Positions 44,910 through 49,141 of a DNA stretch of 64,000 nt are shown here, piece by piece. Under the pieces are notes generated by a model. It saw only the letters and a list, made by a program, of their open reading frames with translations. It was not told the origin of the DNA and ran no database searches. The position numbers and the translations under genes are program-made. How positions within the stretch are numbered: position 1 is the stretch's first letter; each line of letters begins with the position of its first letter. Source of the stretch: Acuticoccus sp. I52.16.1 (lineage in GTDB: Bacteria; Pseudomonadota; Alphaproteobacteria; Rhizobiales; Amorphaceae); NCBI RefSeq assembly GCF_022865125.1, contig NZ_CP094828.1, forward strand, positions 1,922,001 to 1,986,000. The letters run 5' to 3'.

Positions 44910-45817
44910 CGCGCCTCGGCGCCGTCGCCCTCGCCCTCCTGCGCATGGCGGTGCAGGCGGCGGGCATCGTCCTCGTCGTCTTCCTCTTGTGCCGCGTGGC
45001 GCCGGGCGACGCGGTCGACCGCATGGCCCTCGAGGGCGGGCTGACCGCCAGCGAAGAAGCCGAGTTGCGCAGCGAGATGGGCCTCGACAAACCCCTCCTC
45101 GTCGACCTCGCCAGCTGGGCCGGCCACGCGATCACCGGCGACTTCGGCCTCTCGCTGCGCTACGGCCGCCCGGTCGCCGACATGCTGGCGACCGCGCTCC
45201 CCACCACGCTCGCCCTTGCCGCCGGCTCCTTCGCGCTGGGGCTGATCATCGCGATGGGGCTCGCGGTGTCGGCCGCCGTCACCGGAAGCCGCGTGCTGGT
45301 GGGGTTCGTCAACCTCGTCAACATATGGTCCATCGCGCTGCCGACTTTCTGCGTCGGCGTGGTGGCGATCCTCGTCTTCTCCGTCTGGCTCGGCTGGCTG
45401 CCGGTGGTCGGCGCGCTGGCGATGCCGATCGTCATCATCGCGATCGACAATGCCGGGCAGATCGGCAAACCCCTCTTCGAGGAGCTGCGCGAGGCGGCGA
45501 CCTCGGCCCATGTGCGCACCGCACACGCCAAGGGGCTCGGCCGGCCGCGCGTCGCCCTCTTCCACCTCCTCCCCACCGCGCTCCCCGTGGCGCTCGCCCT
45601 CTCGGGCCTGGTGCTGGCGGGGCTGGTGGCGGGGACGCTCACCATGGAGATCCTCTTCAGCCTGCCCGGTATCGGCAGCCTGATGCTCAACGCGATCCAC
45701 GGGCGCGACTATCCCGTGGTGCAGGCCGCGATCACCGTCGTCGCCGTGGCGCTGGTGGTCATCAACGCGGTCATCGACATCATCCACCGCACTGTCGACC
45801 CGAGGCTGACGCGATGA
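44906..45817 (+). CDS. ABC transporter permease, OppB/DppB type
   Basis: Inner-membrane permease of 303 residues with an N-terminal helix and CRVAPGDAVDRMA (the B-type RLxPGD motif), the GLDKPLLVDLASWAGH periplasmic segment and the coupling loop RTAHAKGLGRPRVALFHLLP. It overlaps both neighbours by 4 bp and forms the heterodimeric channel with the preceding permease. Confidence 0.9.
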   Translation: MTRLGAVALALLRMAVQAAGIVLVVFLLCRVAPGDAVDRMALEGGLTASEEAELRSEMGLDKPLLVDLASWAGHAITGDFGLSLRYGRPVADMLATALPTTLALAAGSFALGLIIAMGLAVSAAVTGSRVLVGFVNLVNIWSIALPTFCVGVVAILVFSVWLGWLPVVGALAMPIVIIAIDNAGQIGKPLFEELREAATSAHVRTAHAKGLGRPRVALFHLLPTALPVALALSGLVLAGLVAGTLTMEILFSLPGIGSLMLNAIHGRDYPVVQAAITVVAVALVVINAVIDIIHRTVDPRLTR

Positions 45818-47394
45818 CCGACACCCCCCTCCTCGCCGTCGACGGACTGACGGTCCGCGCCGGCTCGCGCCCGATCGTGGTGGACGCGTCGCTGCGGCTC
45901 GCCCGCGGCGGCACGCTGGCGATCGTCGGCGAATCCGGTTCCGGCAAGTCCACGTTGGCCCTCGCGGTCACGGGCCTGCTGCCGCGCGGCCTGCACGCCG
46001 CGGCAGGCGCGATCCGCTTCGACGGTGCGCCGCTGCCCCTGAACGACGTCAAGGCGATGCGGGCGCTGCGCGGCCGGCGGATCGGCATGATCTTCCAGGA
46101 CCCGATGGCCTCGCTGAACCCGTTCATGCGGGCCGGTCGTCAGATCGGCGAAGCGCTTGGCCGGGCCGGCGTCGCCGGGGCGGAGGCGCGGCGGCGGACC
46201 GAGGCGCTGCTGACCGAGGTGGAGCTGTCGCCGGCGCTGGCGACGCGCTACCCGCACGAACTCTCCGGCGGCCAACAGCAGCGCGTGATGATCGCGATGG
46301 CGCTGGCGGGCGCGCCCGACCTCCTGGTCGCCGACGAGCCGACGAGCGCGCTCGACCCCAACACCACCGCCGAGATCATCGCCCTGCTGGAGCGCCTGCA
46401 GCGGGATCACGGCATGGCACTCCTCCTCGTCAGCCACGACCTCTCCCTGGCGGCCGACGCCGACGACGTGATCGTCATGCGCGAGGGCCGCATCGTCGAG
46501 GCCGGCGCGGCCGCCTCGGTGCTCAACGCCCCGCGCGAGCCCTACACGCGCCGCCTGGTCGACGCCCGGCGCATGCTGAGCGACACGCGCGCGCCCGCCG
46601 CCCCCGCCGACGCACCCATCCGGGCCGCTGCCGAGCGCCTCGGCGTCGACTATCGCGGCGCCGGCCTCTTCGCCCGCCCGGTGCGGGCGGTGCGGAGCGC
46701 CGACGCGACGCTGCGCGCCGGACGCACGCTGGGCATCCTCGGCCGCTCCGGCTCGGGCAAGAGCACCTTGGCGCAGACGCTGGCGGCGATGCAGCGCCCC
46801 AGCACCGGCCGCGTGCAACTCCTCACCGCGACGATCACCGCGGACGGACCGCGGCTGCCGCGTGCGGACCGCCGCGCGGTACAATACGTCTTCCAGAACC
46901 CGCAAGGGGCGCTCAACCCGCGTCTGACGGTCGGCCGCGCGCTCGCCGAGCCGCTGCGCCTGGCAGGCCGGCAGGCCGGCCTCGCGGATCGGATCGCGGC
47001 GGCCCTCGGCGAAGTCGGCCTCGACCCGGCGATGGCGGCCCGCTATCCGCACCAGCTCTCGGGCGGCCAGCGGCAACGTGTGTGCATCGCTCGGGCGCTG
47101 ATCTGCGAGCCGCAGGTGCTGATCTGCGACGAGGTCGTCTCCGCGCTGGACATGACGGTGCAGGCCGAGATCCTCGCCCTACTGGCCCGTCTGCAACGCG
47201 AGCGCGGCTTCGCGATGGCCTTCATCGGCCACGACGTCGACGTGGTACGCTGGATCGCCGACGAGATCGTCGTGATGTTCGAGGGCGCCATCGTCGACCG
47301 CTGCGCGCCGACGGACCTCGACGCACCGGAGCGCCACGCCGAAACGCGCCGCCTGCTCGCGCGGCGAACCCCACCGGCGCTGGCGGCCGCCTAG
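45814..47394 (+). CDS. Fused ABC transporter ATPase (DppD-DppF type)
   Basis: Single protein of 526 residues with two ATPase domains that are separate in many dpp systems. Domain 1 has Walker A GESGSGKST, signature LSGGQQQRV and Walker B VADEPTSALD. Domain 2 has Walker A GRSGSGKST, signature LSGGQRQRV and CDEVVSALD, where Val replaces the usual Pro. Both sites look active. It ends with a TAG at 47392-47394 that lies in the CTAG target of the adjacent insertion sequence; the C-terminus is intact. Confidence 0.92.
   Translation: MTDTPLLAVDGLTVRAGSRPIVVDASLRLARGGTLAIVGESGSGKSTLALAVTGLLPRGLHAAAGAIRFDGAPLPLNDVKAMRALRGRRIGMIFQDPMASLNPFMRAGRQIGEALGRAGVAGAEARRRTEALLTEVELSPALATRYPHELSGGQQQRVMIAMALAGAPDLLVADEPTSALDPNTTAEIIALLERLQRDHGMALLLVSHDLSLAADADDVIVMREGRIVEAGAAASVLNAPREPYTRRLVDARRMLSDTRAPAAPADAPIRAAAERLGVDYRGAGLFARPVRAVRSADATLRAGRTLGILGRSGSGKSTLAQTLAAMQRPSTGRVQLLTATITADGPRLPRADRRAVQYVFQNPQGALNPRLTVGRALAEPLRLAGRQAGLADRIAAALGEVGLDPAMAARYPHQLSGGQRQRVCIARALICEPQVLICDEVVSALDMTVQAEILALLARLQRERGFAMAFIGHDVDVVRWIADEIVVMFEGAIVDRCAPTDLDAPERHAETRRLLARRTPPALAAA
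47391..47394. repeat. Left CTAG target duplication of the IS
   Basis: CTAG, matched by a second copy at 48233-48236. Its last three bases form the stop codon of the ABC ATPase gene. Confidence 0.75.
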
Positions 47395-48232
47395 GTCGTG
47401 AACTCATGGTCCGGGATTCTCAAATGGTCGCGCCCATGATTCAATCTCCTGTCAGTCAGGAGTCGCGGTGTGGCACGTTACGATCTGAGCGAAGTGGAAT
47501 GGTCGATCATCGAGCCGCTGTTGCCGCCGGCGCCGGCCGGAAAGCAGCGTGTGGACGACCGGCGTGTCCTCAACGGCATCTTCTGGGTGTTGCGGACCGG
47601 GTCACCGTGGCGCGACTTGCCGGCGCGCTATGGCCCATCGACGACGGTCTACAATCGCTTCAACAGATGGGCCAAGCGCGGCGTATGGCTGGCGGTGTTC
47701 GAGGCACTTGCTCGAGAAGAGCCGGCCGCGCTCCAGCTCATCGACAGCTCCATCGTGAAGGCTCACCAGCACGCAGCCGGCGGAAAAAAGGGGGCCCGGA
47801 TCACGCCATTGGCCGTTCTCGTGGAGGACTGACGACCAAACTCCACGCCGTCGTCAACGAGCGGGGCCTGCCGATCCGCTTCGTAATCACGGCTGGTCAG
47901 GCCTCCGACAAGACAACAGCGCCGATCCTCCTCGACGGGCTCCCACTCGCACCGGACATCGTGGCCGACCGCGGCTACAGCGCCAAGGCGCTGATCGAAT
48001 GGTGTGCGGCCAGAGGCGCCACCGCCCACATCCCGAGCCAGCGCAACGTTCGTGTTATGCGCACCGTTGCGCCACCGCTCTATCGGCTGCGCAACCTCGT
48101 CGAGCGGTACTTCAACAAGCTGAAGCACTTCCGCCGCATTGCCACCCGATTCGACAAACTCGCCCGAAACTTCATGGCCGCCGTCGCCTTGGCATCGACC
48201 CGCCTATGGCTACGACACCATGAGTCCACGAC
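47395..48232 (+). mobile_element. IS5-family insertion sequence (IS427-like), 838 bp
   Basis: The ends are 16-bp inverted repeats with one mismatch: left GTCGTGAACTCATGGT (47395-47410), right end read inward GTCGTGGACTCATGGT (48217-48232). CTAG flanks both sides. It carries a transposase in two overlapping frames, the usual IS427 design. Because CTAG is palindromic, the duplication could also be TA only, which would move the ends by one base. Both ends and the transposase look intact, so the copy may be active. Confidence 0.88.
47470..47832 (+). CDS. IS5-family transposase, first frame (OrfA)
   Basis: Open frame of 120 codons from a GTG with AGGAG upstream, starting MARYDLSEVEWSIIEPLLPP. It contains the DUF4096/helix-turn-helix part and the first catalytic Asp (LIDSSIVK). 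Without a frameshift translation ends at 47832, giving a short protein that may act as an inhibitor, as OrfA products do in some IS families. Confidence 0.8.
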   Translation: MARYDLSEVEWSIIEPLLPPAPAGKQRVDDRRVLNGIFWVLRTGSPWRDLPARYGPSTTVYNRFNRWAKRGVWLAVFEALAREEPAALQLIDSSIVKAHQHAAGGKKGARITPLAVLVED

Positions 48233-48236
48233 CTAG
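47470..48236 (+). CDS. IS5-family transposase, full product by -1 frameshift
   Basis: Joining OrfA (to 47790) with the -1 frame (47790-48236) gives 255 residues, the normal length for this family. The shift site is A-AAA-AAG at 47784-47790, in the correct phase. The fused protein has the full DDE set: Asp in LIDSS, Asp in VADRGYSAK and Glu in NLVERYFNKLKHFRR. The stop TAG (48234-48236) lies beyond the inverted repeat, in the target duplication, so the frame runs to the very end of the element. Confidence 0.82.
48233..48236. repeat. Right CTAG target duplication of the IS
   Basis: CTAG, identical to 47391-47394. It supplies stop codons for both the transposase (plus strand) and the DMT transporter (minus strand). 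Confidence 0.75.
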
Positions 48237-49141
48237 AGCGCGGCCGGCGACGAGCGCATCGCGATGGCGACCCCGCCCAGGGTGAGCGCGAAGGCGACCG
48301 CCGCGCGCGGCCCCAGCGGTTCGCCGAGCATGAGGGCGGTCGACACGGCGCCGATGATCGGGATCATCAGAAGGCCGGTCGAGGCGGTCGCGACCGGCAG
48401 CCGGCTCGCCGCCGCGAACCAGGCGAGATAGCACAGCGCCATCGGAAACAGCGCCATGTAGCCGAGGGCGGCGGCACCCCGGCCCGTCAGCGCCCCCAGC
48501 TCCGGCCAGTCGATCACCACGCTGGCGGCGATCATCATCGCCGAGCCGATGCCGATCAGCCACCCGGTGCGCACGGTCGGCGTCAGCGGCACGGGGCGGG
48601 GCAGCAGCACCGAGCCGAGGGCGAAGCAGATCGCCGCGGTGAGGGCGAGGCCGATGCCGGGAAGGTCGTCCGCCGCGCCGTCCGGCCGGGTCCCGAAGAG
48701 GACGACGAGCCCGCCGAAACCCAGCGCGATGGCCGCCCAGTCGGCGAGCCGCGGCCGCTGGCCGAGCAGCGGCCAGGCGAACAGCGTCGCCCAGATTGGC
48801 ATCGTGAAGGTGACGAGCGCCGCCTCGGACACGTTGAGCCACAGGAGCGCCAGCGCGGTGAGCCCCATCCAGGCGAAGACGTTGGTGAAGGCCGCGACGA
48901 GGATGGGCCCGCACGCCGAGCGCGGCGGCAAGAGGACGTCGCGCCGGACCGCGCCGACGGCCAGGAGCCCGAAGGCGGCGACCAGACCGGCGGCACCACG
49001 CGCGAAGAGCGGCGGCCAGTCCTCCATGGCGATCTTGATCATCGGCCAGCCGAGGCCCCAGCCGAGCGCGGTCACGGAGAGAAAGGCCCATCCGAGGGGC
49101 TTCGCGTCGAGATCGGCCAAGGAGGGCTCCCCGCGCCCCAC
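48233..49141 (-). CDS. DMT-family transporter (EamA)
   Basis: Inner-membrane exporter of 302 residues with about ten helices arranged as two EamA repeats, for example SVTALGWGLGWPMIKIAME and LTALALLWLNVSEAALVTFTMP. The substrate is unknown; EamA proteins export amino acids or other metabolites. The stop TAG (48233-48235) uses the right-hand CTAG next to the IS, so the gene is complete. Start uncertain: the GTG at 49141 lacks a ribosome site, while a TTG at 49120 follows GGGGAG. Confidence 0.87.
   Translation of the reverse strand: MGRGEPSLADLDAKPLGWAFLSVTALGWGLGWPMIKIAMEDWPPLFARGAAGLVAAFGLLAVGAVRRDVLLPPRSACGPILVAAFTNVFAWMGLTALALLWLNVSEAALVTFTMPIWATLFAWPLLGQRPRLADWAAIALGFGGLVVLFGTRPDGAADDLPGIGLALTAAICFALGSVLLPRPVPLTPTVRTGWLIGIGSAMMIAASVVIDWPELGALTGRGAAALGYMALFPMALCYLAWFAAASRLPVATASTGLLMIPIIGAVSTALMLGEPLGPRAAVAFALTLGGVAIAMRSSPAAL

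Follow-up and report, generated by a model that had tools for sequence, protein, structure and literature searches.

An IS427-like Insertion Sequence at the Shared CTAG of Two Convergent Stop Codons, and a Bias of Its Copies toward Gene Ends in Acuticoccus sp. I52.16.1

Results

The Insertion and Its Two Neighboring Genes

The stretch of Acuticoccus sp. I52.16.1 DNA analyzed here (contig NZ_CP094828.1, positions 1,922,001 to 1,986,000; 64,000 nucleotides, referred to as the window) carries an insertion sequence between two convergent transporter genes, at a CTAG that appears to have held the stop codons of both. Taken with the other copies in the genome, the data make it likely that a recently active IS427-like element targets CTAG in G/C-rich sequence and restores both the tetranucleotide and the stop codons that it contains, with insertions falling or surviving at gene ends. 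The features of the junction are as follows, in window coordinates.

45814..47394, plus strand: ABC transporter ATPase gene with two nucleotide-binding domains (two stretches matching Pfam ABC_tran; start from our own gene caller).
47391..47394, either strand: left CTAG, with the stop of the ABC ATPase gene as TAG at 47392-47394.
47394..48233, plus strand: insertion sequence, window copy, 840 bp if the G...C tips are included and TA is the duplicated target (from the sequence, the inverted repeats and the TA reading obtained in relatives).
47395..47410, plus strand: left terminal inverted repeat, GTCGTGAACTCATGGT.
47470..47832, plus strand: transposase ORFA, 120 aa (Pfam DUF4096, 4.1e-30; NCBIfam NF033580, IS5 family, 138.6 bits).
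47784..47794, plus strand: A6G5 run, probably the slippery sequence at which a −1 frameshift leads into ORFB, as suggested by the sequence and by the −1 frame of ORFB.
47793..48236, plus strand: transposase ORFB as analyzed, inside a longer open frame (Pfam DDE_Tnp_1, 1.8e-20; NF033580, 147.2 bits).
48217..48232, minus strand: right terminal inverted repeat, GTCGTGGACTCATGGT, 15/16 identical to the left one.
48233..48236, either strand: right CTAG, with the stop of the DMT gene as minus-strand TAG (48235-48233) and the stop of ORFB as plus-strand TAG.
48233..49141, minus strand: EamA/DMT transporter gene (Pfam EamA, 8.4e-33; gene call).

The ABC ATPase gene (plus strand) and the EamA/DMT gene (minus strand) converge on the element, whose two flanking CTAG are separated by 838 bp. 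The initial annotation had placed a CTAG on each side, assigning the left one to the stop of the ABC ATPase gene and the right one, read on the minus strand, to that of the DMT gene, and all three statements were borne out: the tetranucleotides lie at 47391-47394 and 48233-48236, TAG at 47392-47394 ends the ABC reading frame, and CTA at 48233-48235 ends that of EamA/DMT. Its further proposal, that excision together with one CTAG restores overlapping stops, was reproduced in silico; removal of the element and one CTAG gives ccgcCTAGagcg, in which both TAG stops overlap by TA. The same annotation credited the duplicated target with re-creating both stops. Both are indeed rebuilt, but the duplication more probably comprises TA alone, the G...C tips of the element completing each CTAG. 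The insertion has thus rewritten both stops and left both neighboring genes undamaged, and expression of the ABC and DMT genes is presumably unchanged by it.

The possibility that the shared stop was made by the insertion itself was considered and rejected. The TA reading puts the outer C on the left and the outer G on the right in the flanks, so that the target already read CTAG; if four bases were duplicated, the target would be CTAG in any case.

An Empty Counterpart in the Same Genus

A relative of the same genus (G005) provides the uninterrupted junction with overlapping stops that had been predicted for element-free relatives. Its orthologous gene pair (76% identity for DMT and 74% for ABC) lacks the element, and a single CTAG, at positions 2376-2379 of locus L018, holds the TAG stops of both genes. 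No transposase match was found in this genome at E≤1e-35. The comparison supports a reading in which the window site was a pre-existing shared CTAG before insertion. Another genome of the genus, G004, carries a transposase match.

Shared CTAG were also sought in relatives at the two other gene pairs whose convergent stops the element occupies (loci L003 and L004). None was found for the L003 pair, the left gene of which is present in two of the nine other family genomes; the pair is kept in G005 and G002, where our own gene caller gives an overlap of 28 bp and a gap of 9 bp. For the L004 pair, none was found in any of the nine other family genomes (9/9), in all of which the pair is convergent, with gaps of −43 to +25. 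At a ChaC-like/acyltransferase convergent junction (L281-L289), stops and overlaps shift freely across nine relatives (gaps −43 to +25), and the gene ends have clearly turned over.

Structure and Coding of the Element

The inverted repeat pair of the window element, GTCGTGRACTCATGGT, matches at 15 of 16 bases. ORFB lies in the −1 frame relative to ORFA with the A6G5 run between them, and frameshifting at this run probably joins the two. Programmed −1 frameshifting is a feature of the IS427 group. Both ORFs exceed the 110-bit cut-off of NF033580 (138.6 and 147.2 bits). The stop of ORFB, plus-strand TAG at 48234-48236, lies within the target-derived right CTAG, and the right CTAG supplies this stop at all 10 insertion loci of the genome.

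The element is classed, from its sequence features, as IS5 family and IS427-like. Profile matches of both ORFs, terminal inverted repeats and multiple copies, as in the IS5 family, were all found for the window element, and so was a two-ORF transposase, which is given as a trait of IS427 in PMC9241763.

Copies across the Genome

A search of the genome returned 16 element matches: nine full copies, one interrupted copy (L010 with L011), one fragment (L012) and four divergent pieces (L013-L016, 68-75%). The analysis below uses 10 insertion loci, namely the nine full copies and the interrupted one; L012 and L013-L016 were left out. Compared with the window copy, eight full copies show 3 to 5 differences over 838 positions, and the spread is therefore recent. 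The interrupted copy (G000:C1 about 2454020-2456170) is split by a second element of ~1.3 kb, a frame of which looks like an IS3-type transposase. The fragment (G000:C1:4901496-4901568) is a 73-bp left end preceded by CTGT, the only left tip seen in the genome without CTAG. Two copies, L003 and L004, have a common variant tip, A to G at position 837 (CACGGCC), which replaces the final T of the transposase with A; because they carry the same variant, these copies would come from one sub-lineage.

CTAG stands on both sides at 10/10 insertion loci, which is not chance, although the tetranucleotide is about five-fold rarer than expected (163 seen against 810 expected in an 800-kb sample). By position the loci fall into three classes.

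Shared stops of convergent genes: L001 (window), L003, L004.
One stop: L002, L005, L007, L008, L009.
Intergenic: L006, L010.

None of the 10 insertion loci lies inside a called gene. A target-gene stop is retained at eight of them, and at three of those eight the stops of two genes each. Ten flanking proteins from seven copies were compared with Pfam; each has a family match, and the products of both genes at L003 and of both at L004 are among them.

Bias toward Stop Codons

The background consisted of 50 sample stretches of the genome (1.0 Mb, 70% G+C), with element-end CTAG left out. Gene ends were taken from our own codon-usage caller rather than a published one, and the test was repeated with bare open frames. 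The 196 background CTAG comprise 98 intergenic sites, 50 inside genes, 47 at one stop and 1 at a shared stop. The last of these, L060, is an empty shared-stop CTAG with weaker flanks.

Occupied sites differ from this background both for shared stops (3/10 versus 1/196, p = 0.0003) and for any stop (8/10 versus 48/196, p = 0.0006), and the bias persists when the open-frame criteria are loosened or tightened in four ways (190 background CTAG, p ≤ 0.0007). The enrichment of insertions at stop-sharing CTAG that the initial annotation had anticipated is thus found within the element's own genome. It is carried by only 10 copies. A small set of copies that happened onto stops might look the same, and the p values in relatives described below (0.03 and 0.04) are in keeping with such an accident; the own-genome values and their stability under the four criteria argue strongly against it, as does a further shared-stop landing in a distant relative (L207), and we regard chance as very improbable.

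Replication in Relatives

Order- and class-wide searches for close copies found few, and the replicate consists mostly of draft genomes with single flanks. The 97 transposase places in relatives gave 27 pairs, 28 right ends only and 42 unresolved places. In close relatives, 17/55 junction sides are at stops compared with 56/304 background sides of the same loci (p = 0.03); without internal sites the stop excess has p = 0.05. Junctions in called genes (7/55 versus 58/304 in the background, p = 0.18) are not clearly fewer. The stop share is very uneven by genome, from 6/9 (G799) to 0/5 (G699) in the close set.

In a wider set of 90 sides, from which duplicates and flanks shorter than 400 bp were dropped and in which unresolved places with a right CTAG were kept, 17 are at stops and 7 in genes; the corresponding background of 659 CTAG has 3 at shared stops and 66 at one stop. 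Among 18 two-sided copies, one is at a shared stop (L207) and four are at one stop (any stop, p = 0.04; shared stop, p = 0.10). The bias in relatives is in the same direction as in the element's own genome, but weaker and uneven.

Which Bases Are Duplicated

All copies in the element's own genome have CTAG at both ends, and 2-bp and 4-bp duplications are indistinguishable from these copies. Relatives yielded 29 end pairs in a search that required CTA at the right end: CTAG/CTAG in 17, CTAG/CTAA in three, and TTAG/CTAA, GTAG/CTAG and CTAA/CTAG in one each; the other six were broken or out of register. The asymmetric ends, namely the three CTAG/CTAA and the one TTAG/CTAA, favor a duplication of TA. 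The more likely reading of these junctions is that TA alone is duplicated and that the tips, G on the left and C on the right, belong to the element and complete CTAG. Duplication of the four bases CTAG is less favored, in view of the same four end pairs among the 29. The CTAA/CTAG pair, from the second element of L209, conflicts with the tip reading. Elements of the IS427 group make a short, TA-centered target duplication, 2 bp TA. If TA is duplicated, a plus-strand frame reaching the left TA would meet TA followed by G, and a minus-strand frame would do likewise at the right, so that a TAA or TAG stop in the target would remain a stop.

An Extended G/C-rich Target

In relatives, the target extends beyond CTAG. 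Among 60 junctions of relatives whose inverted repeats are of the same kind, 43 have G at −2 (about 21 expected) and 30 have C at −3, against 105/304 in the background (p = 0.02). The −2 G is also seen at intergenic junctions alone (22/31 versus 56/170, p = 9e-5) and therefore cannot be put down to codon usage where genes end. Copies in the element's own genome have C at −3 in 13/20 half-sites (p = 0.004) and either G or C at −2 (nine each) instead of the strong −2 G of relatives. Flanks made up entirely of G/C, from −4 to −2 and from +2 to +4, are found at 6 of the 10 own sites, compared with 13/196 background sites (p = 5e-5).

CTAG is extremely scarce in the whole genome (G000), where the pattern SSSNCTAGNSSS occurs 71 times and its backward-read control (with GATC) 5056 times. 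The census covers the matches listed of these 71; one is an element tip, and 52 were classified as empty extended sites. Extended-target sites are often stops, 8/13 in the unbiased sample and 20/52 in the census among the matches listed, and the motif thus explains part of the stop bias.

It is possible, if clearly less likely than the reading we prefer, that the motif does all the work: G/C-flanked CTAG would be preferred, such sites would often be stops in a G+C-rich genome, and neither selection nor a preference for gene ends would be needed. The −2 G of relatives, including that at intergenic junctions, and the all-G/C flanks of six own sites, a context in which 8 of the 13 background sites are stops, speak for this explanation. 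With the motif counted in, however, 4.8 of 10 stops are expected from the sample, or about 3.4 from the census among the matches listed, and eight were seen. Moreover, shared stops account for 0/52 classified empty extended sites among the matches listed and for 3/6 occupied ones (p = 0.0006). The extended motif does not account for the shared-stop excess.

The suggestion in the initial annotation that CTAG at convergent gene ends is a general safe site is therefore kept in part: it is supported by the enrichment in the element's own genome and weakened by the share that the motif explains, by the weaker bias in relatives (p = 0.03) and by the 7/55 junctions there that fall in called genes.

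Convergent Surroundings and Possible Selective Retention

Six of the 10 copies lie between convergent genes, compared with 19/118 non-internal CTAG (p = 0.004), and the 3′ end of a neighbor faces the site on 14/19 sides versus 107/233 (p = 0.02). Predicted folding is also stronger at own sites (median −21.5 versus −14.7, p = 0.02). These observations would suit a transposase that is actively directed to converging gene ends, for instance by supercoiling or by DNA hairpins where transcription stops. The stronger folding, however, accompanies a higher G+C content (0.775 versus 0.67), and selection against polar or promoter insertions predicts the same picture, and we consider active targeting unlikely. 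The extra bias toward shared stops may stem from selective retention, with insertions elsewhere being lost.

Discussion

Collectively, these data suggest the following course of events for the preferred reading. The element would recognize a CTAG set in G/C-rich sequence and most likely duplicate the TA at its center; the G at the left end of the element and the C at its right end would then re-form CTAG at both junctions. A gene with its TAG stop in the target would keep a TAG on either side, and the transposase would borrow its own stop from the right CTAG. In a genome of 70% G+C, where CTAG is rare and a G/C-flanked CTAG is often a stop codon, insertions would consequently land or persist at the ends of genes. 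A CTAG shared by convergent genes would be the mildest site of all, with no codon lost and no downstream gene or promoter cut.

A stronger version, which we hold to be doubtful, would make the element in effect a stop-codon seeker: the G/C-flanked palindromic CTAG would mimic gene ends, the tips would rebuild both TAG, the target would supply the TAG of the transposase, converging ends would be further favored, and G/C-flanked shared-stop junctions would be saturated home sites (three occupied and none empty in 52 classified extended sites among the matches listed).

Mobile elements need to multiply without harm to the host. A tetramer that is rare in genes, frequent at stops and rebuilt on both strands would provide a simple safe-harbor rule without a partner protein. 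Because shared-stop CTAG can be listed in any genome, the question of selection versus targeting becomes countable. For annotation, the present case is a warning that an insertion sequence can touch a stop codon and still leave the gene intact.

Comparison with Known Systems

CTAG targeting that rebuilds stop codons is already published for IS870 and TnRErm46. The title of Fournier et al. (1993) states that IS870 requires a CTAG target to generate the stop codon of its large ORF1, and going by that title both IS870 and the window element take the transposase stop from the target. IS870 differs in its transposase family, being listed with Tc1-mariner-IS630 in PMC4678618. For TnRErm46/ISRe46 of Rhodococcus equi, the sections of PMC6794481 at hand describe a CTAG target at which target genes are left whole with a stop supplied by the element. 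This system belongs to the IS481 family and has a hexanucleotide repeat, NCTAGN; single stops are described in those sections, with no shared convergent stop and no background count. Both hallmarks of the IS870/TnRErm46 type, a target-supplied transposase stop (10/10 loci) and a kept target-gene stop (8/10), were found here.

Within the IS5 family, excerpts of PMC5493358 report that IS5 of Escherichia coli duplicates Py-T-A-Pu, with CTAG, the preferred target, making up 15 of 24 listed targets, and excerpts of PMC9241763 report 4-base CTAG repeats for ISMysh01 of Mycobacterium shottsii. Both are described there as 4-bp duplications, and those excerpts do not mention restoration of the neighbors' stops. 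The closest comparison is with IS427-like elements. Plasmid relatives with ~55% identity are annotated as "IS5-like element IS427 family transposase," and many relatives also terminate on CTAG; there is no difference in kind from the window copy, which sits on a double stop codon.

Our searches of the open-licence literature yielded no double landing on a shared convergent stop with an empty counterpart, and no tip reading, extended target or background count. The new elements here are the double landing, together with the empty junction that matches it, the extended target and the counts against background, and the window event is well supported as a clean variant of a known trick.
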